Of a stretch of 64,000 bases of DNA, positions 21,605-63,140 are shown piece after piece. How positions within the stretch are numbered: the stretch's first letter is position 1; every line of letters starts with the position of its first letter. The position numbers and the translations under genes are program-made. Below the pieces are notes generated by a model. That model was not told where the DNA came from. It did not search any database and saw nothing but the letters and a program-made list of their open reading frames with translations. The DNA is from Chryseobacterium ureilyticum (GTDB taxonomy: Bacteria > Bacteroidota > Bacteroidia > Flavobacteriales > Weeksellaceae). Location: assembly GCF_900156735.1 (NCBI RefSeq), contig NZ_FTOL01000003.1, positions 62,001 to 126,000 on the forward strand, written 5' to 3'.

Positions 21605-22336
21605 TTATTTATTTCTTCCTTTTTCATCAGGATATAGAGACGGAAGCGGGTCGCTTTGCCAGAATTCCTTAGTATCGATATCCATCACGGATAAAGCTCC
21701 GGTAAAGGCTGCCCCTGTATCCAGATTCCAGATATTGGCTTTATTTGCAGGTGTAGTCATTCCAATATCCAAGGTTGGAGTATGCCCGATAAAGATTTCA
21801 CTGTAAAGAAGTAGTCTTTTAGGGTACAATTCTGAGTTCTTTTGAAGTTTACTATCCATTGCCACTGCGGTTTCCCAAAGGGTTCTGTCCCAGCGGTAAT
21901 TGCTGGAATAGACTTCTTTCTCAGGACCATGCATCGAAGAATATCCTGCATGAATAAACAGACGGTTTTGTTCATCAATGTGATAAGGCTTCATCCTTTG
22001 AAAAAATACAAGATGGTTTTCCAGCTCTTCCAAAGAATAATCTTTATAGCTTTCTACGGTACTTTTTCCACCATTGAAAAGCCAGATATCAGGTCCTTGT
22101 TCAAATGACAACCAATCTTCGCACCAGACATCGTGGTTTCCTTTGATAAAAATACATTCCTGTTTTTCGGAAATTTCTATTAAAAACTCGATGATCTGTG
22201 AAGATTCGCTCCATCCGTCTACGTAATCTCCAAGGAAAATCAATTTGTCTTTTTCAGTAACCTCGGCACGTTCAAAAGCTTGCTGTAATGCTTTAAACCC
22301 ACCGTGAATGTCTCCTATTGCTAATGTTCTGCTCAT
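21605..22336 (-). CDS. Metallophosphoesterase (PPP-like), last gene of the ADP-ribose operon
   Basis: A 243-residue calcineurin-like phosphoesterase with the full metal-binding set: GDIHGG (8-13), GDYVDGW (~36-42), GNHDVW, FIHAGY and IGHTP. The fold includes protein phosphatases, diadenosine-tetraphosphatases and phosphodiesterases. Its start shares one base with the preceding stop (TAATG), so it belongs to the operon with KptA, DraG and Sir2. By context it may act on a nucleotide or cyclic phosphate such as ADP-ribose 1'',2''-cyclic phosphate, as the metallophosphoesterase ADPRibase-Mn does; that is inference. Confidence 0.88.
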   Translation of the reverse strand: MSRTLAIGDIHGGFKALQQAFERAEVTEKDKLIFLGDYVDGWSESSQIIEFLIEISEKQECIFIKGNHDVWCEDWLSFEQGPDIWLFNGGKSTVESYKDYSLEELENHLVFFQRMKPYHIDEQNRLFIHAGYSSMHGPEKEVYSSNYRWDRTLWETAVAMDSKLQKNSELYPKRLLLYSEIFIGHTPTLDIGMTTPANKANIWNLDTGAAFTGALSVMDIDTKEFWQSDPLPSLYPDEKGRNK

Positions 22337-22545
22337 TAATTTTTTCCAAATCTTTTATGATAATTGGGGCAGGTATCTACAATTTTTTTTGCTTCTGTCA
22401 ACCCACACCTCTTATGCTCAATTATAAAATACAATACGTGAACTAGACCAGCTCCTTTTGCAAATAAGTCATTTACCTTATCTGTTAAGTTGTCTTTTTC
22501 AGGAGCAAAAGTTATTACTTCTTTTTCAAATTCTTCGAATGTCAT
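22336..22545 (-). CDS. Small protein of unknown function in the ADP-ribose operon
   Basis: A 69-residue protein (MTFEEFEKEVITFAPEKDN). The start at 22545 gives an ATGA overlap with the kptA stop; a longer reading from 22584 would lie deeper inside kptA. The second half, GLVHVLYFIIEHKRCGLTEAKKIVD, resembles the helix-turn-helix of ribosomal-L7/L12 C-terminal-like domains (xLREETGLGLKEAKxLVD), which suggests a small protein- or RNA-binding module. Its stop overlaps the phosphoesterase start. Function unknown. Confidence 0.7.
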   Translation of the reverse strand: MTFEEFEKEVITFAPEKDNLTDKVNDLFAKGAGLVHVLYFIIEHKRCGLTEAKKIVDTCPNYHKRFGKN

Positions 22546-23084
22546 TTTGAAATGTATTTCGGATCTACAAATTCTGTCAGCCATACTCCATTGGCAGACT
22601 GAAAGAAAGCAATTCCATCCTGATGCATTTTTCCGGTTCTGATCGTCAGAATCATTGGTTTCCCGTGTCTCATTCCCACCTTTGTAGCAGTCTCTTTATC
22701 AGTACTTAAGTGTACATGCTGACGTGTTCTTTTTTCAATTCCGGTTTCAAAAATAGAATGGATATTGGCTTCTGCTGTTCCATGATAAAGAAAATCAGGA
22801 GGCTGCACTGTTTCTAAAGCTAAGTTTATGTCAATAGAGTGTCCCTGACTGGCTCTGATTCTGGTTTTATCTTCATTGAAGGCAAATCTTTTTTTATTAT
22901 TGGTTTCTACCACCTCATCCAGTTCTTTCATTGTGAAATGTGTTCTTCTTTTGGCTGATTTTGCGATCAGTTCTTCTACATCTGCCCAACCGTTTTCATC
23001 TAATTTGAGCCCTATAATTTCGGGCTGGTGCCTTAAAATAAGGCTTAAAAATTTACTTATTCTTTTTGTTTCTATTTCGTTCAT
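22542..23084 (-). CDS. kptA: RNA 2'-phosphotransferase (Tpt1/KptA)
   Basis: A 180-residue enzyme. The family transfers an RNA 2'-phosphate to NAD+, releasing nicotinamide and ADP-ribose 1'',2''-cyclic phosphate. The N-terminal winged-helix part has SKFLSLILRHQPEIIGLKLDENGWADVEELI. The C-terminal ART-like part has YHGT, RQHVHLS and GMRHGKPMILTI. The ATG at 23084 (MNEIETKRISK) is preferred over a TTG further upstream. It sits in the middle of a polycistron of ADP-ribose enzymes, including a macro domain and a Nudix protein that could process its unusual product. Confidence 0.93.
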   Translation of the reverse strand: MNEIETKRISKFLSLILRHQPEIIGLKLDENGWADVEELIAKSAKRRTHFTMKELDEVVETNNKKRFAFNEDKTRIRASQGHSIDINLALETVQPPDFLYHGTAEANIHSIFETGIEKRTRQHVHLSTDKETATKVGMRHGKPMILTIRTGKMHQDGIAFFQSANGVWLTEFVDPKYISK

Positions 23085-23095
23085 GGTGTGTTGTA

Positions 23096-23578
23096 TTAAC
23101 AATTATAATATTCGGGGAGAAAGGTAACGGGCAAGTTTGTCACTTTTGATATTTCATCTGCATATTCATCAAAGCTATATTCGCCTGCTTCTGCAATTTC
23201 GCACGACTTACCATTGGCAAAGCATACTAAAATCCAGGAACCTCCGCCTCCTTTTGCCGGTAACATATTTTGTATTTCAAATCCTGTGACTTCACTTAAA
23301 ATAAATAGTTTGCTTCTTTGTTCATTTGAGTATCCAAGCAAATCATTTTTTACATCTATCCATAATAAGTTCCTTTTATTTAAAATTTTCAATATTTCAT
23401 CCGGCGTCTTAAACTGAAAATATTGTGATTTTTCTACTACAATATATTTAAATTCCATATACTTATCGACTTCTATTTTGCCATTGTATACGGGTAAATT
23501 TTCTTCAGGAATTTTCTCCTGTTTCTTCTTTTCTTTTGGAGAGAAAAGGGTTGTAATTATTTTAATTAAGCTTTTCAT
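23096..23578 (-). CDS. Protein of unknown function
   Basis: A 160-residue protein from ATG 23578 (MKSLIKIITTLFSPKEKKKQEKIPEEN): a short hydrophobic or amphipathic N-terminus, a charged linker, then a folded part with SEVTGFEIQNMLPAKGGGGSWILVCFANGKSCEIAEAGEYSFDEYADEISKVTNLPVTF. No family was recognised. Its start lies inside the 3' end of the ADP-ribosylglycohydrolase gene (17-bp overlap), so it is translated with the operon. It is more AT-rich than kptA or the DraG gene, perhaps a later acquisition. It might be membrane-associated through its N-terminus. Confidence 0.7.
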   Translation of the reverse strand: MKSLIKIITTLFSPKEKKKQEKIPEENLPVYNGKIEVDKYMEFKYIVVEKSQYFQFKTPDEILKILNKRNLLWIDVKNDLLGYSNEQRSKLFILSEVTGFEIQNMLPAKGGGGSWILVCFANGKSCEIAEAGEYSFDEYADEISKVTNLPVTFLPEYYNC

Positions 23579-24521
23579 CTTCACCAGATAATTGATTTTG
23601 TAATTTCTCACAAACAGCTATAATGTCATCCTTTCTCACAAGTACTGAAACCCACTCCTGAGGAATATTTTCAAATCCATAATAAATTCCTGCAAGTCCA
23701 CCGGTAATAGCTGCTGTAGTATCTGTATCTTCTCCTAAGTTGACTGCTTTCAATACTGATTCTGAATAATTTTCTGAGTTTAAGAAGCACCATAAAGAAG
23801 CCTCCAGACTGTGTAGCACATAGCCACTTGCTCTGATTTCATCTTCGGGATAAACTGAAATATCATTTTTTAAAATTCTTTGAAAAAGTCCGACTTCACT
23901 TGGGTTAAACCCTTGTAGTTCTGCATATTCTAAGGCTAACTTTTGCATGTGTACGTATGCTTCCTTTTTACTTTTACCTTTTATTAACTGAATTGCAAAG
24001 ATGATATAGATAAAACAGGCAAAAACAGATCTAAAATGACCATGTGTAATTGCTGAAACTTCCTTTACAGTCTGATATAACTTCTGAATATCATCTTCAT
24101 TTTCAAGATAAAAAGCTAAAGGAATAATTCTCATTAAAGAACCATTCCCGTTATCTTCTTCAAAAATATTTCCTGAAAATCTAGCGCTCTCTCCTTTTAT
24201 CAATCTTGCAATAGAATGTCTTGTTGTTCCACCAATATCGAAAAGTCTTCCATGAGCGGTCCAATGCCCATATTTATTCCACTGCACAAAGCTTTGCCCT
24301 ATTTTTTCTAAATCATAGCCTTTTGTAAGTACCTCAGCAAGGCAGAGCGTTAAAGAACTGTCATCACTCCAGGTACCTTTAGGTTGGTTCCAGGACATAT
24401 ATTCCAACATTCCCGTTACCGGAGATTTTTTCAAATCTTCTCTTTTTTTAAACTCTACAGGAACTCCAAGGGCATCACCGATGCATATTCCCATAATTCC
24501 TGCTTTTACTTTATTTTCCAT
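23562..24521 (-). CDS. ADP-ribosylglycohydrolase (DraG-like)
   Basis: A 319-residue enzyme of the DraG/ARH family, which removes ADP-ribose from arginine or related acceptors, or cleaves O-acetyl-ADP-ribose. The di-metal site is visible: GICIGDALGVPVEF near the N-terminus, GTWSDDSSL (~49-57), and GEDTDTTAAITGGLAGIYYG near the C-terminus. Full length. Its start shares a base with the sirtuin stop. It is one of several ADP-ribose-removing activities in the operon (with NADAR, macro and PARG-like), which suggests different chemical linkages or products. Confidence 0.93.
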   Translation of the reverse strand: MENKVKAGIMGICIGDALGVPVEFKKREDLKKSPVTGMLEYMSWNQPKGTWSDDSSLTLCLAEVLTKGYDLEKIGQSFVQWNKYGHWTAHGRLFDIGGTTRHSIARLIKGESARFSGNIFEEDNGNGSLMRIIPLAFYLENEDDIQKLYQTVKEVSAITHGHFRSVFACFIYIIFAIQLIKGKSKKEAYVHMQKLALEYAELQGFNPSEVGLFQRILKNDISVYPEDEIRASGYVLHSLEASLWCFLNSENYSESVLKAVNLGEDTDTTAAITGGLAGIYYGFENIPQEWVSVLVRKDDIIAVCEKLQNQLSGEDEKLN

Positions 24522-25207
24522 CAGGCAAGATTTACCAGTTTATCAAATAAAAGTTTCATTCCCTGCGTTGCTGTCTCTTTCATCACTACAGCTCTCTGTC
24601 CGTAACCAAAGCCTGTTTCATTAGGATTAATAACGATTAAAAGACAATCATCTTTAATATCATGAATCAAACCAGCTGCTGGGTAAACCTGTAAAGAAGT
24701 TCCAATAACCAGGAGTATATCTGCTTCCTGTACCATTTTTCTTGCATCATGCAGTAATGGAACATCTTCTCCAAACCAAACGATAAAAGGTCTTAATTGA
24801 GCTCCATCTTCTGCTTTGTCACCAATATTGATGTCTCCTTTTTGTTCGTAAACAAGTTTTTTATTGTTACATGAACAAGACTTGAACAATTCTCCGTGAA
24901 TGTGAAGGATATTTGTAGAACCGGCTCTTTCGTGAAGGTCATCGATATTTTGGGTAATGATCTGAACATCGAAATGCTTTTCAAGTTCTGCTAATAATTG
25001 ATGGGCTTCATTAGGTTGTACTTCATGAAGCTGGCGTCTTCTCTGGTTATAAAATTCCAATACCAAAGCTCTGTCTTTTCTCCAGCCTTCCGGGCTTGCA
25101 ACATCTGTTACGTTATGATTTTCCCAAAGTCCGTCTCCATCTCTGAATGTTTGTATTCCGCTTTCGGCACTGATTCCTGCGCCGCTTAATATGGTTAGTT
25201 TTTTCAT
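24521..25207 (-). CDS. Sir2-family NAD-dependent deacylase (CobB-like)
   Basis: A 228-residue sirtuin that consumes NAD+ to remove acyl groups from lysine, giving O-acyl-ADP-ribose. Motifs are GAGISAESGIQTFRDGDGLW (9-28), TQNIDDLHERAG (85-96), catalytic His104 (HIHGE), VWFGE and GTSLQVYPAAGL. Tyr53 and Arg56 in EFYNQRRRQL match the YxxR pair of desuccinylase/demalonylase sirtuins. Only CSC of the zinc tetrad is present and the second Cys pair is absent, as I recall for the Bacteroidota branch. It overlaps DUF2971 upstream (ATGA) and DraG downstream. Confidence 0.93.
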   Translation of the reverse strand: MKKLTILSGAGISAESGIQTFRDGDGLWENHNVTDVASPEGWRKDRALVLEFYNQRRRQLHEVQPNEAHQLLAELEKHFDVQIITQNIDDLHERAGSTNILHIHGELFKSCSCNNKKLVYEQKGDINIGDKAEDGAQLRPFIVWFGEDVPLLHDARKMVQEADILLVIGTSLQVYPAAGLIHDIKDDCLLIVINPNETGFGYGQRAVVMKETATQGMKLLFDKLVNLA

Positions 25208-26244
25208 TGGTTTTTTAATATTTCATAGTATTCTGTATCCTTACATGGATTATAAATTCCTGCTTCTTGCCAATTATCACAAACTGTAATTATTGAATTA
25301 GCATAATCAATGTATTCTTTATTTTTTTTAGGATAAATATCTATTAGTTGCTTTATTTCTCGATTATCAAAAATATAAAGACTATTATTCTCTTTAATAA
25401 AATAAGCTTCTCTAAATGCTGAAATAAATTCTTTTATTTCAGACTCTGCTTTTTTACTTTTATAAAAAACATAATATGATTCATGAGCTAAATCTAATCG
25501 ATGTTTCAGAATTTCAAAATCAAATTTATTGATATCATACTTCAATTTCCTTTTTGTCTCATAAATTAATTTAAAATCTAGTTCAAAATTTGAAGGAAAA
25601 ACCTCATAAAATTTTACATCATTATTTTCAAACAGCTTATAAAATGTCTCTTTGACTATTTCTGGTGTCTTAATTCCAAAATAGATTCCAGTAATTGCTG
25701 ATGGGTGAAATTTTTTCATCCCATACTTATCAAAAATCAATCGAACTTCCTTCTCATGCTTCCACGCAGATTTCTTTGTTGCAAACATTTTTTGAATAAA
25801 GCTACTGCTTAGATTTGACATATCTTCAATCCCCAATGTAGGTACACTTTCTTTGTAATCAACCTTAAATTTATATTGAAAATCAAAATTTTGTTCTTTA
25901 TCAATTAATATGTCCAAATCATACTCTATACAATATCCTGAATAAGAACTCGCATAATAAGCCCATAATTGTTCATTTAAAAAATCCGTACTCAAACAAT
26001 AGATTCCAATTTTCTCTTTAAAATCTAAAACTTCCCCAAGACATTTTTTAAAATTATCCAATTCTGCAAAAGGAAATAAAATCTTTAAAAGATCTACTGA
26101 GTGAGATATTTCTTCATTAAAGTAAATATCAAAAGGATCGTTCAAAGCACTATAATTTGATGAATAAAAGGAATTCTCCTTAAGAGTTTTAATATCTCTA
26201 TCAAAAATGTCCTTTTCTATTGATCGGTATTTATATACTTTCAT
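25204..26244 (-). CDS. DUF2971 domain protein in the ADP-ribose operon
   Basis: A 346-residue protein with the DUF2971 pattern: VYKYRS (3-8), FYSSNYSALNDPFD (26-39), GIYCLSTDFLNEQLWAYYASSYSGYCIEYD (80-109) and W-KHEKEVRLIF (~160-170). A C-terminal ~120-residue extension is Lys/Tyr/Glu-rich and unmatched. DUF2971 proteins are of unknown function and often occur in mobile or defence contexts. The gene is distinctly more AT-rich than its neighbours, suggesting separate acquisition, yet its stop overlaps the sirtuin start by 4 bp. The YR...W..E.E.R pattern is a reason to test for an ADP-ribosyltransferase-like fold. Confidence 0.82.
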   Translation of the reverse strand: MKVYKYRSIEKDIFDRDIKTLKENSFYSSNYSALNDPFDIYFNEEISHSVDLLKILFPFAELDNFKKCLGEVLDFKEKIGIYCLSTDFLNEQLWAYYASSYSGYCIEYDLDILIDKEQNFDFQYKFKVDYKESVPTLGIEDMSNLSSSFIQKMFATKKSAWKHEKEVRLIFDKYGMKKFHPSAITGIYFGIKTPEIVKETFYKLFENNDVKFYEVFPSNFELDFKLIYETKRKLKYDINKFDFEILKHRLDLAHESYYVFYKSKKAESEIKEFISAFREAYFIKENNSLYIFDNREIKQLIDIYPKKNKEYIDYANSIITVCDNWQEAGIYNPCKDTEYYEILKNQ

Positions 26245-26276: not shown

Positions 26277-27092
26277 TTATATTATTTCTTCAAACGGTTT
26301 CAGCATCTCTTCTTTCTTTGTAAGTACGGCAAAAACCACTCTTTTAAATTTATTTTTATATTTTCCCTGAAGATGTTTTTTGAACAGACCTGCAATTTCT
26401 TTCGGATCATTTTTGAAAACTCCACAGCCCCAAGCTCCTAAAATTAAGGTTTCATTTCCTTGATGTAAGGCTAGTGAAAGCATTTTATCTGTCCGGATAT
26501 CCATGGTTTCCAGAATCTCATTTTCTCTCTGAGGTTCCTGTCGTTTTACTACGCCTGCATTTACTGCCGGAGAAGTAATGAAATTACACAGTACCGGTTT
26601 TGGCAGTAATTCTCCTTTATCTTTTCTGAAAACAGGAACTTTCGGACTGTAAATCATGGTATCTGTGTAAAAACAAGAGGTCATACTACGGTGTAATGTG
26701 TAATAATCTTCTGCCATTAACAGGCTTTCATATAATCCTGAAGTTCTGGCAAGGCTTTCTTCCTGTGCTTCTGCTCCATTGATAAATCCTCCACCCGGAT
26801 TTTTTGCGGATGCAAAGTTCAGACACATTATTTTTCCCTGATCTTCTTGTTCTGCTAATTGTAAAATAGCTTTAAGAGAACTACATCGCCAGGTTTCAAA
26901 TTGAGTTTCAAAATGAGTTTCCGGCATTGAAGTCGCTATGAGCTCAGAGAGCTGTTCAGGGTTGAAAAGAACGGTTCCTTTTTTACTGGTTTCCAGTTCT
27001 TTTTCGATATCTATTCTCTGGTGTTCTGTATTTATATAATATTTATTGGCTAGGATATCTAATGTATCTTTTGCCATTTCTTTATTGGTCAT
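26277..27092 (-). CDS. TIGR02452/microbial PARG-like protein
   Basis: A 271-residue protein of the bacterial poly(ADP-ribose) glycohydrolase-like family, a macro-domain variant. The signature NFASAKNPGGGFINGAEAQEESLARTSGLYESL (~102-125) contains the GGG loop and the adjacent catalytic Glu pair (E111, E112). Further on are YSPKVPVFR and LGAWGCGVFKNDP, the second ADP-ribose-contacting loop. It is expected to hydrolyse ADP-ribose polymers or terminal O-glycosidic links. It lies between the DUF2971 and J1-family genes with gaps of 32 and 45 bp. Confidence 0.9.
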   Translation of the reverse strand: MTNKEMAKDTLDILANKYYINTEHQRIDIEKELETSKKGTVLFNPEQLSELIATSMPETHFETQFETWRCSSLKAILQLAEQEDQGKIMCLNFASAKNPGGGFINGAEAQEESLARTSGLYESLLMAEDYYTLHRSMTSCFYTDTMIYSPKVPVFRKDKGELLPKPVLCNFITSPAVNAGVVKRQEPQRENEILETMDIRTDKMLSLALHQGNETLILGAWGCGVFKNDPKEIAGLFKKHLQGKYKNKFKRVVFAVLTKKEEMLKPFEEII

Positions 27093-27137: not shown

Positions 27138-27563
27138 TTATGAATTCGCGGTGGTGTTTAAAGTATTTACAAGGCTTTCTATATTTTTATTGGCAGCCTT
27201 TTTAAAATCGTTCCCGACAAATACTTTTATAATTTCTATTTTTCCTACAATTGCCTGATTAAATGTTTCAAGCTCTTCTGAAGGTACCCACAGTTCATTA
27301 TGGTTTCTGGCTCCTACATTCTGAGCTGGATATTGATTGGCTATTTCTTCCAAAACATCAAACTGGGTTACAAAACCAAGATAATTTCCAAACTCATCCC
27401 TCGTATTCCACTTTTCTGCAATTTCTGATGCGTAGTCTTCATCCAAAACAGGATAGAATATAGGCTGCCATTCTAATCTTGGAGGAAATTTTTGATATCC
27501 ACTCTCCATGATCAGAACCATTTCTTTTTCTCCTACAGGTCTGTATAGTTTTGTTGTTTTCAT
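27138..27563 (-). CDS. 'ADP-ribosylation/crystallin J1' family small protein
   Basis: A 141-residue protein from ATG 27563 (MKTTKLYRPVGEKEMVLI). It has the conserved layout TKLYRPVGEKE, FPPRLEWQPIFYPVLDEDYASEIAEKWN, GYxGFVTQF-like, VGARNHNELWVPSEELETFNQAIVGKIEVI. Databases commonly label such proteins 'ADP-ribosylation/crystallin J1', a name carried over from gene neighbours rather than from biochemistry. The order Arg-Tyr (strand 1), FYPV..Y and Glu in NELWVP recalls ADP-ribosyltransferase R/H-Y-E triads, so it could be a transferase; this is inference only. It lies between the macro-domain and PARG-like genes. Confidence 0.75.
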   Translation of the reverse strand: MKTTKLYRPVGEKEMVLIMESGYQKFPPRLEWQPIFYPVLDEDYASEIAEKWNTRDEFGNYLGFVTQFDVLEEIANQYPAQNVGARNHNELWVPSEELETFNQAIVGKIEIIKVFVGNDFKKAANKNIESLVNTLNTTANS

Positions 27564-27638: not shown

Positions 27639-28115
27639 CTATTCAAAATCATATATAAAAACCTCAACATTTTTGTTCAGTAATGTTCTCTCAATAATAG
27701 GTTCTATTTCTGTCCATTTTCCACCTGCCAATCCACATCCGATTCTCGGCATATGAATGCTTGCATTGAGTGATAAAGCTTCATTTGATAAAGTTTCCAG
27801 ACATTTTTCAATAGCTTCATATCGAACGGGAACGCCGTTACTTCCGGTTTTTATTCCTTTTTGTCCAATCATATTGGCTACATATATATATTTTTCTACC
27901 TGTATGATCTGAATTTCTCCTAAAGCAAAATTATTTTTACTTCTGAAGCGATGCCAGTTCCGATATTCTTTTTCAGGTGCTTCCCATCTTTTGGAAACGG
28001 CAAGTACAAAACCTTTTCCCCAACCACCAATATCATTACAGATATGGGCAATTATTTTTATTCCTTTTGTCTGCGGAACCGTAGCATCACCTTTTATATA
28101 TTGTATCGTTTTCAT
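27639..28115 (-). CDS. Macro-domain protein (ADP-ribose phosphatase-like)
   Basis: A 158-residue stand-alone macro domain. ADP-ribose-binding loops are visible: GDAT (9-12), HICNDIGGWGKGF (24-36) and RIGCGLAGGKW (~125-135). The CGLAGG loop and overall order resemble Poa1p/ALC1-type macro domains, which include ADP-ribose 1''-phosphate phosphatases and O-acetyl-ADP-ribose deacylases. Both activities fit here: the sirtuin makes O-acyl-ADP-ribose and KptA makes ADP-ribose 1'',2''-cyclic phosphate. Confidence 0.93.
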   Translation of the reverse strand: MKTIQYIKGDATVPQTKGIKIIAHICNDIGGWGKGFVLAVSKRWEAPEKEYRNWHRFRSKNNFALGEIQIIQVEKYIYVANMIGQKGIKTGSNGVPVRYEAIEKCLETLSNEALSLNASIHMPRIGCGLAGGKWTEIEPIIERTLLNKNVEVFIYDFE

Positions 28116-28166: not shown

Positions 28167-29237
28167 TTAAAAAAGCTTTTTAAAGTCTTCTGAATAAGGA
28201 GAAAATGATCCGTAAACAGTTTTAAATGTTATATCCAGCTTATCTAAATTCATTTCTTTATCAATCTGATCCAGACAAGTAATTACAAGATTCTTTTTTG
28301 TTGAATGTGTGTAAGCTGCGTCTAATTTTAAAGCATAATTCAGCAGTTTATCGTCTAAATCTCCTACTCTCAACTCTTTCTGATATTCATTAAAGATACA
28401 GGTTTCCTCTTCATTGTTTTTTAAAATAATCTCTTTTTCATTGCTCATCCAGCCATTTCCGTGACGGGTTGCATAGCTTCTTGTCACATAATACATTTCA
28501 ATATCTTCAATATTAAGCTGTTTACATATTTCAGATGCGTTCTTTGAGGTGGTGTGAGCATACGTTACATTCGGAAAGACTCCATGATCCATATCTAGGA
28601 AAATTCCCTGGCTTCCTTCAAAAATGAGGTTATCAAATGATTTAAGATACTCATAATCATCTATTTTCCAATCTATCTGATCAATTGCTTCTAAAAAAGA
28701 TTTCAAATGTTCTTTAATCTGATTTTCCTCTAAAAAACCGTAGTAATAAGCAATTCTTTTCAGTTTTTCCAACAGCATTTCTTTGGGTGCAATAAGATCA
28801 ATTGCAAATAGTTTATAAGGGCTTTCATTTCGCTTCATTGTAGCTCCTACTCCTTTTCCGCAGGTTCCATGTTCCAGATTTTTTGAATTTGTTCTGTTTT
28901 CCCAGACATCAAACGGCGTTGTTATCTTTGCCAATGGATGGATATGAAGCTCTATATTACCATTCTGAGACTTTAATTCTTCTCTTTCATTCAATAAAAA
29001 TTCCGGATGAATGGTACAATGTTCCGTAAAATAGGATGGTAATCCACGAAGCGCACCGCTTGCAAAGCTGGAATGAACATGTTTTCTATCATCAATCATT
29101 ACCGTATGAGCTGCCTGCTGTCCTCCTGAAAATCTTATGACCACAGAATCCGGGTTCTGACTGGCAAGAAAGTCTGTTGTGATTCCTTTTCCTTCATCAC
29201 CAAAGCCTAATCCTATAACTATTTGCGCCTTTTTCAT
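28167..29237 (-). CDS. Divergent adenylosuccinate synthetase (PurA) paralog
   Basis: A 356-residue protein, shorter than housekeeping PurA (~430). It keeps the P-loop GFGDEGKG with catalytic Asp14, a His44 in GGQQAAHTV (GGNNAGHT in PurA), HGTCGKGVGA, the switch FEGSQGIFLDMDHG and TRSYATRHGNG. It lacks the usual C-terminal Arg-rich TGRxRRCGWFD segment, reading ELRVGDLDDKLLNYALKLD instead. It may ligate aspartate or another amine to an IMP-like or hypoxanthine-containing nucleotide. It lies 5 bp after the VWA gene in the ADP-ribose operon, so it is unlikely to be the purine-pathway enzyme. Confidence 0.85.
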   Translation of the reverse strand: MKKAQIVIGLGFGDEGKGITTDFLASQNPDSVVIRFSGGQQAAHTVMIDDRKHVHSSFASGALRGLPSYFTEHCTIHPEFLLNEREELKSQNGNIELHIHPLAKITTPFDVWENRTNSKNLEHGTCGKGVGATMKRNESPYKLFAIDLIAPKEMLLEKLKRIAYYYGFLEENQIKEHLKSFLEAIDQIDWKIDDYEYLKSFDNLIFEGSQGIFLDMDHGVFPNVTYAHTTSKNASEICKQLNIEDIEMYYVTRSYATRHGNGWMSNEKEIILKNNEEETCIFNEYQKELRVGDLDDKLLNYALKLDAAYTHSTKKNLVITCLDQIDKEMNLDKLDITFKTVYGSFSPYSEDFKKLF

Positions 29238-30448: not shown

Positions 30449-30469
30449 TTTGTGTTATTATTACGCTAA
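30449..30469. promoter_or_regulatory. NrtR-type operator candidate 1 (12-gene operon)
   Basis: TTTGTGT-N7-ACGCTAA, a 7-7-7 inverted repeat 13 bp upstream of the first gene of the operon. It has the same spacing and arms as the sites at 31213, 31267 and 32246. Confidence 0.72.
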
Positions 30470-30669
30470 TTAAAAAAGGCATAATTATCCAATAATCCTG
30501 CATTTATTTTAACAGGAAGCCATTACATCTGTTCTTTAAATTTTTATCCTTGTAATAAAACGATTTATTCTTAGTTTTCAGTCTTTAAAAGAGAATCCTC
30601 AATCAAAAAAATCTATGGGTAGAGTTTTGTTTTTTCATGATTAATATTTTGTGTTTGGTTAGTCTGTTT

Positions 30670-31212
30670 TTACCCTCTCAATTCATCCCTTACTTCCATC
30701 AAAGCAAATCCTAAAAGGTTTTCTCCGTTCCATAATAAAGGATTTTCTGCTCTTGAATCTGTTTCCAACATTCCTATTCCCCAGATCGTATCATAAGGAC
30801 TTGCCTCTACCAGAATCTTATCATTTGTAGATAAAAGAAAGTCTTTAAACTTTTTATTCTGAGAAAATTTTAAAAAGTTTCCTTGTTTTACGATCTGATA
30901 CTTATGATCATTCCAGACAACCGGATCAAAGTTTTTAACTTTTCTTCCTAAACTTTTTACCTGATTAGGGCTTGGTGATTGTAGTATTTTTTCCAGTGTT
31001 TCAGGATCATTAAACAATCGGACTTTCCCAGCCATCATATAATGTTCTGCTGTTTTATATACAATCCCACTCTCTTCAAAATTACCTGAAAACCACTGAC
31101 TAAAACATGATTTGGTAATTTCATCTTTTACAGTATGCCCCCAGAAAAACAAAAATTTTATCCTTTGCTTTTTTTGAAATTTGTCTTTAATATTTTGTAT
31201 GGTGTATTTCAT
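30670..31212 (-). CDS. NADAR-family protein (YbiA-like)
   Basis: A 180-residue NADAR domain. Family words are FLFFWGH near the N-terminus, CFSQWFSGNFEESGIVYKTAEHYMMAGKVRLF, NQVKSLGRKVKNFDPVVW, ASPYDTIWGIGM, and the C-terminal NLLGFALMEVRDEL. NADAR proteins are N-glycosidases: some remove ADP-ribose from guanine in nucleic acid (the DarG side of DarTG1), and YbiA-type members act on riboflavin intermediates. The ADP-ribose neighbourhood favours the first role. It is transcribed separately from the 12-gene operon, with two operator-like repeats directly upstream. Confidence 0.92.
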   Translation of the reverse strand: MKYTIQNIKDKFQKKQRIKFLFFWGHTVKDEITKSCFSQWFSGNFEESGIVYKTAEHYMMAGKVRLFNDPETLEKILQSPSPNQVKSLGRKVKNFDPVVWNDHKYQIVKQGNFLKFSQNKKFKDFLLSTNDKILVEASPYDTIWGIGMLETDSRAENPLLWNGENLLGFALMEVRDELRG

Positions 31213-31233
31213 ATTGTGTTATTTCTACGCAAA
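31213..31233. promoter_or_regulatory. NrtR-type operator candidate 2 (NADAR gene, proximal)
   Basis: ATTGTGT-N7-ACGCAAA directly abuts the ATG of the NADAR gene. The left arm differs from the perfect site at 32246 at two positions; the spacing is the same. A site here would block initiation of transcription or translation. Confidence 0.68.
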
Positions 31234-31266
31234 TGTAAAGCAATATCAATTTATCTTCCAAATTTA

Positions 31267-31287
31267 TTTGTGTCAATTTTACGCTAA
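31267..31287. promoter_or_regulatory. NrtR-type operator candidate 3 (NADAR gene, distal)
   Basis: TTTGTGT-N7-ACGCTAA, with the same arms as the site at 30449 and 54 bp upstream of the proximal NADAR site, that is about five helical turns, which would suit cooperative binding or looping. Confidence 0.7.
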
Positions 31288-31359
31288 TAACCATAATTAA
31301 TTGATTACCAATGATAAAATTTTATTATTATAATTACAAATGATACTAACATATTAGGT

Positions 31360-31425
31360 TTCGGCTGAAGCCAATGGAATTTTTGTCCATAAAAAAAACG
31401 GGCTAAAGCCCGTTTCTATTGAATG
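31360..31425. repeat. REP-like palindromic element
   Basis: A short unit with two nested hairpins: GGCTGAAGCC (31363-31372) and AAACGGGCTAAAGCCCGTTT (31396-31415). This wording resembles non-coding palindromes I recall as dispersed in Chryseobacterium and related genomes. It lies between the NADAR and Nudix genes and could also act as a terminator or mRNA-stability element for the Nudix transcript. Confidence 0.5.
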
Positions 31426-31542
31426 TATTTTCCTTGATATTTATTTGTATAATATATTTTAATATGAACTATTCTATTAGCATCTAGCATAGAAATTTGT
31501 GATTATTCGTGAAAAATATTTGTTTCATTTGTGTTTAAGAAA

Positions 31543-32238
31543 CTATTTGATCTCGAAGTAAAATCCTTGTTCTTCCAACTCTTTATATTTTTCCTGATTG
31601 AAAGTGAATAGTTTACCTGGTCTTCCGCTTCCTTCTTTTTTAACATTATTGGTTTCATTAAGCAATCCATAGCTCATGATCTTTTTACGGAAATTTCTAC
31701 GGTCTATTTCCTGTCCTACAATGGTTTTATAAAGATTCTCAAGGTCTGAGAAAGGGAATTCTTCATTCAGAAGGTTGAAACCGATAGGCTGGTATTGGAT
31801 CTTGGTACGAAGTCTTTTTAAAGCAATATCAATAATTCCTTTATGATCAAAAGCTACAGTGGGAAGATTGTTGATACTGAACCACTGTGCATCATCCGCA
31901 TCGGAGTCTGCAAAGAGTTCGTGATAAGAAGGGTTTACAAGCCCCAAATAAGCTACAGAAACTACTCTATTCCTCGGATCTCGACCAACGTTACCAAATG
32001 TATAGAGTTGTTCCAAAAAGTCAGGTTTTATGCCTGCTTCTTCATGCAGCTCCCTTTTTACAGCATCATCGAGATTTTCATCATCGAGAACCAGCCCACC
32101 CGGAAGAGCCCACCCTCCTTTAAAAGGTTCTATATTTCTTTTGATCAAAAGGATTTGAAGATCTTTTTTATCGAAATATCCAAAAATAACGGCATCTACC
32201 GCTACTTTGATATCCTGTAATTTTCTTGGAGACTCCAT
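31543..32238 (-). CDS. NrtR-family Nudix/winged-helix transcriptional regulator
   Basis: A 231-residue protein. The N-terminal Nudix domain has an intact box, GX5EX7REUXEEXGU at residues 48-70 (VKRELHEEAGI), so it may still hydrolyse ADP-ribose-like compounds. The C-terminal ~90 residues form a winged helix (FRKKIMSYGLLNETNNV...GRPGKLFTF) as in NrtR, the ADP-ribose-responsive repressor of NAD metabolism, and in AraR of Bacteroides. The ATG at 32238 is preferred because the upstream TTG at 32265 lies inside a perfect operator palindrome. Probable autorepressor of the whole cluster. Confidence 0.9.
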   Translation of the reverse strand: MESPRKLQDIKVAVDAVIFGYFDKKDLQILLIKRNIEPFKGGWALPGGLVLDDENLDDAVKRELHEEAGIKPDFLEQLYTFGNVGRDPRNRVVSVAYLGLVNPSYHELFADSDADDAQWFSINNLPTVAFDHKGIIDIALKRLRTKIQYQPIGFNLLNEEFPFSDLENLYKTIVGQEIDRRNFRKKIMSYGLLNETNNVKKEGSGRPGKLFTFNQEKYKELEEQGFYFEIK

Positions 32239-32245
32239 AAATTTA

Positions 32246-32266
32246 TTTGCGTTATGAATACGCAAA
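32246..32266. promoter_or_regulatory. NrtR-type operator candidate 4 (autoregulatory, perfect palindrome)
   Basis: TTTGCGT-N7-ACGCAAA, a perfect 7-7-7 inverted repeat 7 bp upstream of the regulator ATG and 31 bp before the divergent lipoprotein gene. It is the best-matching of four sites and may also affect the lipoprotein promoter. Confidence 0.8.
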
Positions 32267-32297
32267 ATTATGAATAAATATTTAGTATTTTTACTAA

Positions 32298-60695: not shown

Positions 60696-63140
60696 TTAAT
60701 CTTTTATATAGATCCGCTTCACCCGAGGTGAAATGGATGTTAATACTTCATAGGTTATAGTTTTGCAGTAATCTGCGAATTCTTTTAAACTTGGTTTTGC
60801 ATTAAATACGGTTACCATGTCACCTTCCTTTACATTAGGAACATGATCCACATTAAGCATCATCATATCCATACAGATATTTCCAACAATTGGAGCCAAT
60901 GTTTTGTTGACACCAAGGCTTCCAACCTGGTTGCCTATTAATCTTGGAATACCATCTGCGTATCCTACAGGAATGGTAGCAATCTTGGTAAGATGGTCTG
61001 TTTTAAATCTTCTGCTGTATCCTACAGATTCGCCGTCTTCTACCATTGATATCTGTGAAATTACGGTTTTAAAACTTACCACAGACTGTAATTGTTTTTG
61101 TATTTGAGGATTTGGTGATTCTCCAAGCATTCCTATACCAATTCTTACCATGTCATATTGGTGATCTGTGTAGCTTGTAATACCGGAAGAATTTAAAATA
61201 TGTCGGATAGGTGCATATCCTAATTTTTCAATCAGATAGCTTGAATTTTTATCAAATGTCTTTAATTGATTAAATGTAAATTCCTTTTCTTCAGGAACAT
61301 CAGATGATGACAAATGACTGAACATACTTTGAACTTTAAGATTTTTACTACTTAAAGTTTCACTTAGCTGATCCAATTCAAAACCTTTAAATCCAAGACG
61401 GTGCATTCCTGTCTCTAGTTTAATATGGATAGGGTATTTCTTATCATATCCTGATTTTTGTACAGCTTCATAGAATAATTCCAAAACTCTGAAGCTATAA
61501 ATTTCTGGTTCAAGATTGTATTCTATAATAGTCTGATAACTGTGTTGCTCAGGATTCATTACCACAATAGGAGTGGTGATTCCTTTTTTACGAAGTTCAA
61601 CACCTTCATCGGCAAAAGCTACTCCAAGATAATCGATATGATGATGTTGTAAAAATTCCGAAATTTCATAACTTCCCAAACCATAAGCATTAGCTTTTAC
61701 CATAGCCATCATTTTTGTCTGTGGCTTTAAAAGAGATTTATGGTAATTGATATTATGAAGAATAGCATTAAGATTAATCTCTAAAACGGTATCATGCTTT
61801 CTGAGCTCAAGAATATCTTTTAATTTTTCAATTTCAAATTTTCTCGCTCCTTTTAGAAGAATAATCTGATTTTCTATTTCAGACAAATGTTTACTTTCAA
61901 TAAGTTCTTTGGTATCTATGAAAGTATACGTTTTAGATTTGAATAATTCACTATATTTTGAAATTTCATCACCAATCAGAAATACAGAATCGAAATGTTG
62001 TTCATTGACAAGCTCCGAAACTTCTTCATACAATTCCTGAGAATTAGTACTCACCCCTACGATGTCTGTTAAGACCAAAGATTTTTTCGGTTTATTATAT
62101 TCATTCAAAAATTGAAGTGCAGTTTTCAAAGAATCGAGATCAAGATTGAAAGAATCGTTGATGACAATATTGCCTTTAATTCCTTCAATTGCTTCAAGCC
62201 TCATTTCGACGGCTTTTAAAAGATTGATTTTTTCGACGATCTTTTTATTTTCGACCTGTAACTCCTTTAGGACTGTAATAAGCGCTGTAGCATTGGTTAA
62301 CGTCGATTCGTCTCTTTGATGAGCAGGAAAACTGATTTCTTCGCCAAAATAGTCAACAATGATGTTTTCATCTTTCGTATTTTTTTTGATGAAGACCTGA
62401 TTTTTATTTTTAAGCCCGTAAGAGATCAGCTTTTTATCAGCGTATAATTTTTTTATTTTTTCTTCTACTAAAGAATGGTCACCATTATAGATGATCACTT
62501 CAGAATCTTTGAAAAGTTTAATTTTTTCATCGATCAGTTCTTCCTCAGAAGAAAAGTTGGCAGCATGTGCCGTTCCGATATGCGTTAATAGTCCAATTTG
62601 CGGATGGAAAATATTTTCAAGCTTTTCCATTTCATTCGGATGAGAAATTCCTACTTCAAAAATTCCCAGTTCATGAGAATCATTGATCTGAAGAAGAGAA
62701 AGCGGAAGTCCTATCTGAGAATTAAAACTTTTTGGGCTTTTTACCGTTGGAAATTCATTCCACAGACATTGATATAACCATTCCTTTAAAATAGTTTTTC
62801 CATTGCTTCCTGTGATTCCGATGGATCGTAAATGAGAATTTTCGAAGTGATGCTTTGCTAATTGTTGCAGAAAATCCACGGAATTCTTAACAATAATCCA
62901 AGTTATATTTTCAAACTGTGGATACTCATGTTCAGAAATAATAATATTAATTCCTCTGTCAATGGCAGCTTCAATGAACTTTTCACCAGAATTTTTATGT
63001 GTATTAATAGCTACAAAGGCAGTATTCTTAATTGAATAAATAATTCTGCTGTCATAAGCTATATTCTTAACCACTAGACTTTTGTCTCCAATAACCTGTG
63101 CATTGGTGATTTCTGTAATTTGTTGTACTGTATAGTTCAT
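60696..63140 (-). CDS. murF-alr: Bifunctional MurF (UDP-MurNAc-tripeptide:D-Ala-D-Ala ligase) / alanine racemase
   Basis: An 814-residue fusion. Residues ~1-440 are MurF, with the ATP-binding GITGSNGKTILKEWL (~107-121) and SFNSQIGLPLSLL. Residues ~450-814 are alanine racemase: the PLP lysine in MAMVKANAYGLGSYE, LETGMHRLGF, and the C-terminal GYSRRF and VGNICMDMMMLNVD (catalytic Tyr side). Alanine racemase makes D-Ala and MurF adds D-Ala-D-Ala to the peptidoglycan precursor, so the fusion joins two steps of one pathway. It is the usual form in Bacteroidota. Confidence 0.95.
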   Translation of the reverse strand: MNYTVQQITEITNAQVIGDKSLVVKNIAYDSRIIYSIKNTAFVAINTHKNSGEKFIEAAIDRGINIIISEHEYPQFENITWIIVKNSVDFLQQLAKHHFENSHLRSIGITGSNGKTILKEWLYQCLWNEFPTVKSPKSFNSQIGLPLSLLQINDSHELGIFEVGISHPNEMEKLENIFHPQIGLLTHIGTAHAANFSSEEELIDEKIKLFKDSEVIIYNGDHSLVEEKIKKLYADKKLISYGLKNKNQVFIKKNTKDENIIVDYFGEEISFPAHQRDESTLTNATALITVLKELQVENKKIVEKINLLKAVEMRLEAIEGIKGNIVINDSFNLDLDSLKTALQFLNEYNKPKKSLVLTDIVGVSTNSQELYEEVSELVNEQHFDSVFLIGDEISKYSELFKSKTYTFIDTKELIESKHLSEIENQIILLKGARKFEIEKLKDILELRKHDTVLEINLNAILHNINYHKSLLKPQTKMMAMVKANAYGLGSYEISEFLQHHHIDYLGVAFADEGVELRKKGITTPIVVMNPEQHSYQTIIEYNLEPEIYSFRVLELFYEAVQKSGYDKKYPIHIKLETGMHRLGFKGFELDQLSETLSSKNLKVQSMFSHLSSSDVPEEKEFTFNQLKTFDKNSSYLIEKLGYAPIRHILNSSGITSYTDHQYDMVRIGIGMLGESPNPQIQKQLQSVVSFKTVISQISMVEDGESVGYSRRFKTDHLTKIATIPVGYADGIPRLIGNQVGSLGVNKTLAPIVGNICMDMMMLNVDHVPNVKEGDMVTVFNAKPSLKEFADYCKTITYEVLTSISPRVKRIYIKD

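Follow-up and report, generated by a model that had tools for sequence, protein, structure and literature searches.

NrtR-type repressors combine a Nudix domain with an NrtR winged helix, bind palindromic operators of 21-23 base pairs (bp), have an autoregulatory site and control genes of NAD salvage. Repression and its release by ADP-ribose are known for members of the family (PMC4666351, PMC6800001), including release of the NrtR proteins of Shewanella and Synechocystis (PMC4666351, citing earlier work). The same domain pair, type of operator, autoregulatory site and NAD-salvage targets recur in the locus described here, a stretch of 64,000 nucleotides (the window; positions 62,001 to 126,000 of contig NZ_FTOL01000003.1) from Chryseobacterium ureilyticum, in which copies of one 21-bp palindrome stand before an NrtR-family regulator gene, a NADAR-domain gene and a 12-gene operon. 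These palindromes are probably the operators of the adjacent repressor, which would control its own gene, the NADAR gene, the operon and, outside the window, pncB, with ADP-ribose or a close derivative as inducer. The NrtR family is known; the set of targets and the intact Nudix box are unusual.

Comparison with the described systems is revealing of what is particular to this locus. The known NrtR family differs in that the main target here is an island for ADP-ribose removal and RNA repair, and NrtR proteins of NAD metabolism have an impaired Nudix box (PMC4666351) whereas that of the window regulator is intact. The Bacteroides sugar regulators BtAraR and XylR belong to the same family and have semipalindromic sites of 21 bp, with tandem upstream sites that lie 3 or 42 nucleotides apart for AraR, but their targets are arabinose or xylose genes, they fall in another tree group, and the Nudix motif of AraR is not conserved (PMC4666351). 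In gene content the island resembles the systems centred on ADP-ribosylglycohydrolase of PMC9503650 (section 3.8), which likewise bring together this enzyme, a phosphatase, von Willebrand A (vWA), macro and NADAR proteins and a Nudix-helix-turn-helix repressor; such repressors are predicted there to control these systems, with release by ADP-ribose proposed. The window holds their defining combination of an ADP-ribosylglycohydrolase, a Nudix or WYL repressor and a phosphatase. However, those systems were chosen for having no coupled ADP-ribosyltransferases or sirtuins, and the window operon encodes both Tpt1/KptA and a SIR2 protein; moreover, section 3.8 gives no operators and no link to pncB or Namat, and Bacteroidetes are not among the lineages that it names. 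A further comparison is with NARP1, the pathway of Adps and of Namat, the enzyme by which NAD is rebuilt from ADP-ribose (PMC12774641). Genes resembling both are found in the regulator neighbourhoods of relatives; at the threshold given below no homolog was found in the genus itself, where pncB carries the motif instead. NADAR proteins are reported to reverse the ADP-ribosylation of guanosine in RNA, and bacterial PARG that at the 2'-OH of RNA (PMC11833690); the word NrtR is absent from the main text of that paper. Among the titles and abstract openings listed by literature searches, none mentions the operators described here, an NrtR protein of Chryseobacterium or control of NARP1 by NrtR, which is weak evidence of absence, since most subscription papers lay outside the reach of the searches.

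The first-pass annotation of this DNA had reported four copies of a palindrome of the form TTTGYGT-N7-ACGCWAA, and all four were found exactly at the places and with the letters that it gave (Table 1). The spacing of 54 bp that it had claimed for the two NADAR sites follows from their coordinates, and operator 1 is the perfect inverted repeat that it had described, with both 7-bp arms exact reverse complements. With up to one mismatch this pattern occurs in the window at these four places alone (five matches over both strands, against 0.05 expected), and none of 100 shuffled windows reached five matches. The pattern WTDGYGT-N7-ACRCHAW is likewise confined in the window to the four sites (0.02 expected; 0 of 100 shuffles). 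The four sites are therefore real and beyond chance.

Supporting this conclusion, a search of the whole 5.18-Mb genome, which the first-pass annotation had proposed as a check on whether the motif is common at unrelated sites, found the strict motif WTDGYGT-N7-ACRCHAW at only six places, against three in the reversed control, so that the near-exact motif is not common elsewhere. Four of the six are the island sites; the other two, C8:916143 and C13:2396, were considered as operators and taken for background, both lying within open frames. Loose searches stood at or below their controls and were therefore not used: three mismatches to the first-pass pattern gave chance level in the window (16 found, 19 expected), and two mismatches gave 66 matches in the genome, against 107 in the control. 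Two further places were seen in passing, C12:260693, which appears only with looser flanks and overlaps the first codons of an open frame of 124 amino acids, and C16:26246, in which the core is absent from one arm.

The sites are conserved within the genus. Among 35 loci of the genus Chryseobacterium (the window and 34 others), the site before the regulator is present in all 35 and in the same place, and the pair of the NADAR type is present in 33, with a spacing of 54 bp in 30, 53 bp in two and 55 bp in one; the operon site is found in 27. Of the 33 loci that have the pair, 29 were found to have a NADAR gene as well. Of the two loci without the pair, G034 lies at a contig end, and in G009 the NADAR gene and its pair lie about 42 kb from the regulator, which suggests that the sites travel with their targets.

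A fifth site extends the regulon beyond the window. The first-pass annotation had described sites at the promoters of the island, and these stand, but the regulon is larger than the island: a slightly weaker site, detected by comparison of genomes, lies at C12:574608, 2 bp before pncB, which encodes nicotinate phosphoribosyltransferase (over the cut-offs of both Pfam and NCBIfam). This site ends in CATA and thus falls outside the strict pattern. A site before pncB is nevertheless found in 33 of 36 genus genomes (this one and 35 others), being missing in G008, G011 and G031. The last of these is the only genus member of the set in which the regulator has no ortholog (the closest match there being a paralog of 42% identity), and searches of its genome found no strict motif match, no operator with the promoter box described below and no NADAR. 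Thus, the probable regulon of this NrtR protein joins ADP-ribose removal and RNA 2'-phosphate repair to the recovery of NAD, and is larger than first reported.

The regulator itself carries an N-terminal Nudix domain and a C-terminal NrtR winged helix, both over cut-off (NUDIX 71.3 bits, NrtR_WHD 79.2 bits), and a palindromic site precedes both its own gene and genes of NAD metabolism. These domain matches, the symmetric 21-bp site, the co-occurrence of sites and regulator, and the NAD-metabolism genes under or beside the motif bear out its initial description as NrtR-type. It scores 142.7 bits against the NCBIfam equivalog NF050029 (ADPR-responsive repressor), for which the cut-off is 400, and is therefore a relative of that equivalog but outside it; NF050029 covers a single curated subgroup and does not define the family as a whole. 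Of the 35 genus loci, 34 encode an intact Nudix box and one has a broken gene, so that the impaired motif of the characterised NAD-type members, which is not strictly a defining trait, is not seen in this regulator. Elsewhere the box is intact in two of the four f3/f13 loci and in 13 of 20 loci from the class-wide search described below (one of the 20 being unreadable); L084 and L085 both lack an intact box. The protein is 100% identical to one from Chryseobacterium artocarpi, and the best 80 of the 117 loci found are at least 90% identical to it, nearly all of them named Chryseobacterium. Stops or breaks were seen in the matched stretch of the regulator genes of G013 (L083) and G167 (L222) and of pncB in G003; the adjoining sites are kept.

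The positions of the sites within their promoters point to repression. In a flavobacterium the sigma-A consensus at -7 is TAnnTTTG (PMC9723704), and such a box is formed together with the first half-site in all 35 regulator sites and in all 33 proximal sites of the NADAR-type pair among the genus loci, as well as in 33 of 33 pncB sites; this overlap, at the regulator and the proximal NADAR sites, is the basis on which repression is predicted. None of the 33 distal sites overlaps such a box. Instead the distal operator lies just upstream of a TTTG resembling the -33 element, whose distance to the TA of the -7 box is 21 bp in 28 and 20 bp in four of the 33 loci. The two NADAR sites are thus both present, as first described, but are not equivalent. 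Judging by the letters, both the -7 box and the start would be hidden beneath a dimer bound at the proximal site, and the NADAR promoter would lie between two operators separated by about five helical turns, which may co-operate. The conserved blocks of the aligned genus NADAR promoter are the two sites, the -33-like TTTG and the -7 box, together with AATCAAT further upstream. This last block, within TTGGTAATCAAT (consensus CTGAAAATCAAT; window 31300-31311, minus strand), precedes the distal operator by about 12 bp and is possibly the site of another factor. A conserved CTATG about 10 bp upstream of the operon site is a candidate for the -7 region of the operon.

The combined pattern of an operator with a -7 box was found in 58 of 60 genus genomes and in 0 of 60 reversed controls. 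By their letters the places are mostly like the NADAR or pncB promoters, part of them having been inspected. One such place, seen in a single genome (L097, G015:C35:12274-12294, operator with -7 box TATATTTG), lies 4 bp before a gene whose protein has a weak, sub-cut-off match (0.00065) to the FRG domain, a domain of the ADP-ribosyltransferase superfamily (PMC9503650).

Table 1. Sites, promoter elements and genes of the island, in window coordinates
Feature	Position	Strand	Remarks
Operator 1	32246-32266	minus	TTTGCGTTATGAATACGCAAA; upstream of regulator gene (autoregulation); ATG at 32238, 7 bp away
Operator 2, distal, NADAR promoter	31267-31287	minus	TTTGTGTCAATTTTACGCTAA; 54 bp from operator 3
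Operator 3, proximal, NADAR promoter	31213-31233	minus	ATTGTGTTATTTCTACGCAAA; abuts NADAR start codon directly
Operator 4	30449-30469	minus	TTTGTGTTATTATTACGCTAA; first operon gene 13 bp downstream
Regulator -7 box	32263-32270	minus	TAATTTTG; overlaps operator 1; TAnnTTTG consensus from PMC9723704
NADAR -7 box	31230-31237	minus	TACATTTG; overlaps operator 3
NADAR -33-like TTTG	31259-31262	minus	between operators 2 and 3
Regulator, 231 amino acids	31543-32238	minus	Pfam NUDIX 1.1e-19, NrtR_WHD 2.5e-22, AraR_C 2.4e-14; Nudix box intact
NADAR-domain protein, 180 amino acids	30670-31212	minus	Pfam PF08719 4.4e-55; NCBIfam TIGR02464
Operon gene 1, 111 amino acids	30100-30435	minus	no family match
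Operon gene 2, 284 amino acids	29243-30097	minus	vWA-like by eye (DVTGSMG); sole match phrog_2971, function unknown
Operon gene 3, adenylosuccinate-synthetase-like	28167-29237	minus	Pfam PF00709 1.8e-45; under NCBIfam purA cut-offs
Operon gene 4, macro-domain-like	27639-28115	minus	Pfam PF01661 2.6e-4, 21.3 bits, slightly under cut-off 22
Operon gene 5, no named family	27138-27563	minus	homolog in 27/35 genus loci; start picked by eye
Operon gene 6, microbial-type PARG	26277-27092	minus	TIGR02452
Operon gene 7, DUF2971	25204-26244	minus	DUF2971 match
Operon gene 8, sirtuin (SIR2)	24521-25207	minus	SIR2 match
Operon gene 9, ADP-ribosylglycohydrolase	23562-24521	minus	family match
Operon gene 10, no named family	23096-23578	minus	start picked by eye
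Operon gene 11, RNA 2'-phosphotransferase Tpt1/KptA	22542-23087	minus	Pfam PF01885 3.2e-55; over NCBIfam NF002014 cut-off
Operon gene 12, calcineurin-like phosphoesterase	21605-22336	minus	Pfam PF00149 1.6e-16; sub-cut-off match to bacterial Pnkp TIGR04075

The association of motif, regulator and NAD metabolism is also found outside the genus. In a set of 59 genomes of relatives, four outside the genus hold regulator orthologs of 57-59% identity (56-59% by tblastn), and beside each the motif occurs as a pair 52 or 54 bp apart, before or between NAD-salvage genes. Two of these neighbourhoods, L081 and L082, contain homologs of the first two operon genes, of the adenylosuccinate-synthetase-like gene, of NADAR and of ADP-ribosylglycohydrolase, to which L081 adds a macro gene and L082 adds Tpt1 and phosphoesterase genes. 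A class-wide search gave 30 matches in 29 genomes, of which five belonged to the genus or were already in the set; 20 of the other 25 were taken (leaving out G135, G098, G212, G283 and the second match of G280), and ten of these 20 have the pair, 50-54 bp apart. Their neighbours include genes like prs and nadV, and by eye like nadM in L220 and L237. More specifically, a prs-like gene accompanies PARG, ADP-ribosylglycohydrolase, macro and Tpt1 genes in L219 and SIR2, Tpt1, phosphoesterase and homologs of operon genes 1-3 in L231, while L234 brings together prs, NADAR, Tpt1, phosphoesterase and nadV, and L237 has nadV with NADAR. Among loci of at least 55% identity the core motif lies beside the regulator in 15 of 18, against 0 of 18 in the reversed control and 0.23 expected; below 55% it is found in three of six (control one of six), and it was found in neither of two more distant loci, L084 and L085. 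In G058, of another family, a site (G058:C2:137483-137503) lies 19 bp upstream of a NADAR gene, and the regulator is on a different contig.

Many of the motif-bearing loci outside the genus lie beside NAD-salvage genes that are often Namat-like. The NadV-like protein of L081 scores 617 bits against 9w5x/9w5w and 240 against human-type NAMPT entries. These two structures, titled nicotinamide phosphoribosyltransferase, are taken as the Namat of SpbetaL1 because the numbering of the selectivity-clamp residues R40, F392 and Y396 named in PMC12774641 lands in them on residues identical in L081, and the L081 protein thus has the equivalents of all three. The helix signature allowed 11 NadV-like proteins encoded beside the regulator to be classified, eight as Namat-like (aromatic) and three as NAMPT-like, with a different loop in L080; this typing covers the proteins recovered by one signature expression, the tblastn NadV hits of L234 and L236 being unclassed and two chance hits in L224 disregarded. 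The Adps-like protein, for which synthesis of ADP-ribose pyrophosphate would be the expected activity, scores 265 bits against phage phrog_619 and 130 bits against TIGR01251, two scores from different libraries. At an E value of 1e-40 or better there is no NadV/Namat-like homolog in the 36 genus genomes, and within the set of relatives such homologs are confined to the four ortholog-bearing genomes outside the genus.

Several observations weigh against the interpretation of the sites as operators of an ADP-ribose-responsive repressor. Eight of the 35 genus loci have no strict operon site. In four loci that have the pair (G012, G027, G008 and G011), NADAR was found neither at the locus nor elsewhere in the genome, and in G008 and G011 the regulator is present and the pncB site is absent. 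The first-pass annotation had placed sites before every promoter of the island, which holds for the regulator, the NADAR gene and the 12-gene operon; at the operon, however, the site overlaps a TAnnTTTG box in 0 of 27 genus loci, so that its way of repressing is less clear. With looser flanks (WWDGYGT-N7-ACRCHWW) the genome contains eight places, the two gained being the pncB site and C12:260693, and the reversed control likewise contains eight, so that counting by itself does not single out pncB; conservation does. Outside the genus, no core motif was found in L225, L230 and L232 despite at least 55% identity; the divergent neighbour in the latter two has by eye the look of an NAD synthetase. 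Among solved structures phmmer places BtAraR closest to the regulator (173 bits, against 115 bits for Shewanella NrtR), and relatives respond to other ligands, BtAraR to L-arabinose and NdnR to NAD (PMC4666351).

Repression with release by ADP-ribose or a related nucleotide, as predicted by the first-pass annotation, stays a prediction here. The mechanism that we infer, from operator binding and repression to the ligand, its hydrolysis and the physiological trigger, would run as follows. In the unstressed cell a dimer on the operators would block the regulator's own promoter, the NADAR promoter, the 12-gene operon and pncB. ADP-ribosylating toxins, NADases or turnover would break NAD down, and the resulting ADP-ribose or a close derivative would bind the Nudix domain and release the DNA. 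The enzymes then made would free proteins and nucleic acids of ADP-ribose (NADAR, PARG, ADP-ribosylglycohydrolase and macro proteins), repair 2'-phosphate RNA (Tpt1 and perhaps the phosphoesterase) and bring NAD back by salvage of nicotinate (PncB). As its Nudix box is intact, the repressor may in addition degrade its own inducer, which would reset the system.

An alternative that overlaps with this mechanism, and that has a small but real share of the probability, is that the signal is an ADP-ribose derivative produced by enzymes of the regulator's own operon, such as the cyclic phosphate of Tpt1 or the O-acetyl-ADP-ribose of the sirtuin, and that the trigger is 2'-phosphate damage to RNA. 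The constancy of SIR2 (32 of 35 genus loci) and Tpt1 (30 of 35) would fit such a signal, as would the presence of Tpt1 beside the regulator in other families (L082, L219, L231 and L234). However, pncB and the Adps-, Namat- and nadV-like neighbours point to a more general NAD or ADP-ribose signal, and many class loci have no Tpt1 in the 6-11 kb examined. It is unlikely that the same operators and repressor instead answer to low NAD, with NAD as co-repressor and the regulon as a response to NAD shortage. NdnR of Corynebacterium, in the same family, does respond to NAD (PMC4666351), and pncB is a target that fits such a shortage; on the other hand, many of the targets act in the removal or processing of ADP-ribose and not in NAD synthesis, and the neighbour in relatives is often Namat-like, an enzyme that uses ADP-ribose pyrophosphate (PMC12774641).

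It is very improbable that a sugar-type NrtR paralog (AraR/XylR) or some other regulator uses the sites and that the neighbouring gene is a bystander. AraR_C also matches the regulator, and further NrtR-family genes exist in the genus, but G031 retains its paralog and has no site, and the core motif is absent from six of the seven paralog loci that were examined, the seventh (L241) having a single match with flanks unlike those of the operators. In the window's own genome one other NrtR_WHD protein is encoded, and the core motif was not found within 3.2 kb around its gene. The tree separates the group of the regulator (21 rows, 96/87) from a group of 15 rows (98/95) in which BtAraR and the genus paralogs stand together with L234-L238, L084 and L085; this latter group also takes in loci with motif-like sites and NAD-gene neighbours (L234, L236 and L237). 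L230 and L232 lie separately, and Shewanella NrtR, on a very long branch, has no sure placement. The reading of the regulator as an AraR-type sugar regulator was accordingly rejected on its targets and tree position, since it has neither the position in the AraR group nor the sugar-gene targets of BtAraR. The pentose contacts of BtAraR (Arg34, Arg86 and His131; PMC4666351) are non-discriminating, being identical in the regulator and in Shewanella NrtR. Finally, that the palindromes are dispersed repeats or conserved promoter sequence rather than protein sites is scarcely credible, for although the promoter-proximal sites partly coincide with the -7 box, conservation extends over the full symmetric motif and thus to the arm beyond the box, the distal and operon sites overlap no box, and no further promoter in the genome carries the strict motif.

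The operon varies in content among the 35 genus loci. SIR2 and Tpt1 are followed in frequency by vWA-like (28) and adenylosuccinate-synthetase-like (28) genes, phosphoesterase (26), ADP-ribosylglycohydrolase (25), PARG (24), macro (19) and DUF2971 (9); these counts include L067, L069 and L077, in which little or no operon is visible, two of them reaching a contig end. The adenylosuccinate-synthetase-like protein is short and far under the purA cut-offs, and is retained in L081, L082 and L231 of another family. A small open frame seen by eye between the Tpt1 and phosphoesterase genes (window about 22348-22545, minus strand) means that the operon may number 13 genes. In L064, L072, L075, L096 and L222 the first gene after an operon-type site or pair encodes a protein beginning MFGF, with an SPFH-type look by eye.

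If the repressor and its operators act as proposed, an ADP-ribose conflict island that was loosely predicted becomes a defined regulon whose operators are known exactly, whose ligand can be tested and whose output can be measured. One repressor would tie the reversal of ADP-ribosylation and the repair of RNA 2'-phosphates to the recovery of NAD, and in related families to Namat- and Adps-like genes. A reporter on any of the operators might serve as a live read-out of the cellular ADP-ribose load. For bacterial NARP1, whose role PMC12774641 calls open with a balance of NAD and ADP-ribose suggested, the gene neighbourhoods found here point in that same direction. As a more tentative possibility, an ADP-ribose-sensing NrtR with an active Nudix domain may run a complete ADP-ribose salvage circuit across Bacteroidia, inducing hydrolases that liberate ADP-ribose from proteins, DNA and RNA as well as enzymes that convert the liberated ADP-ribose (Adps-Namat, as bacterial NARP1) or nicotinate (PncB) into NAD, and resetting itself by destruction of the inducer. 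If true, such a circuit would give bacterial NARP1, its role still called open in 2026, a physiological setting.

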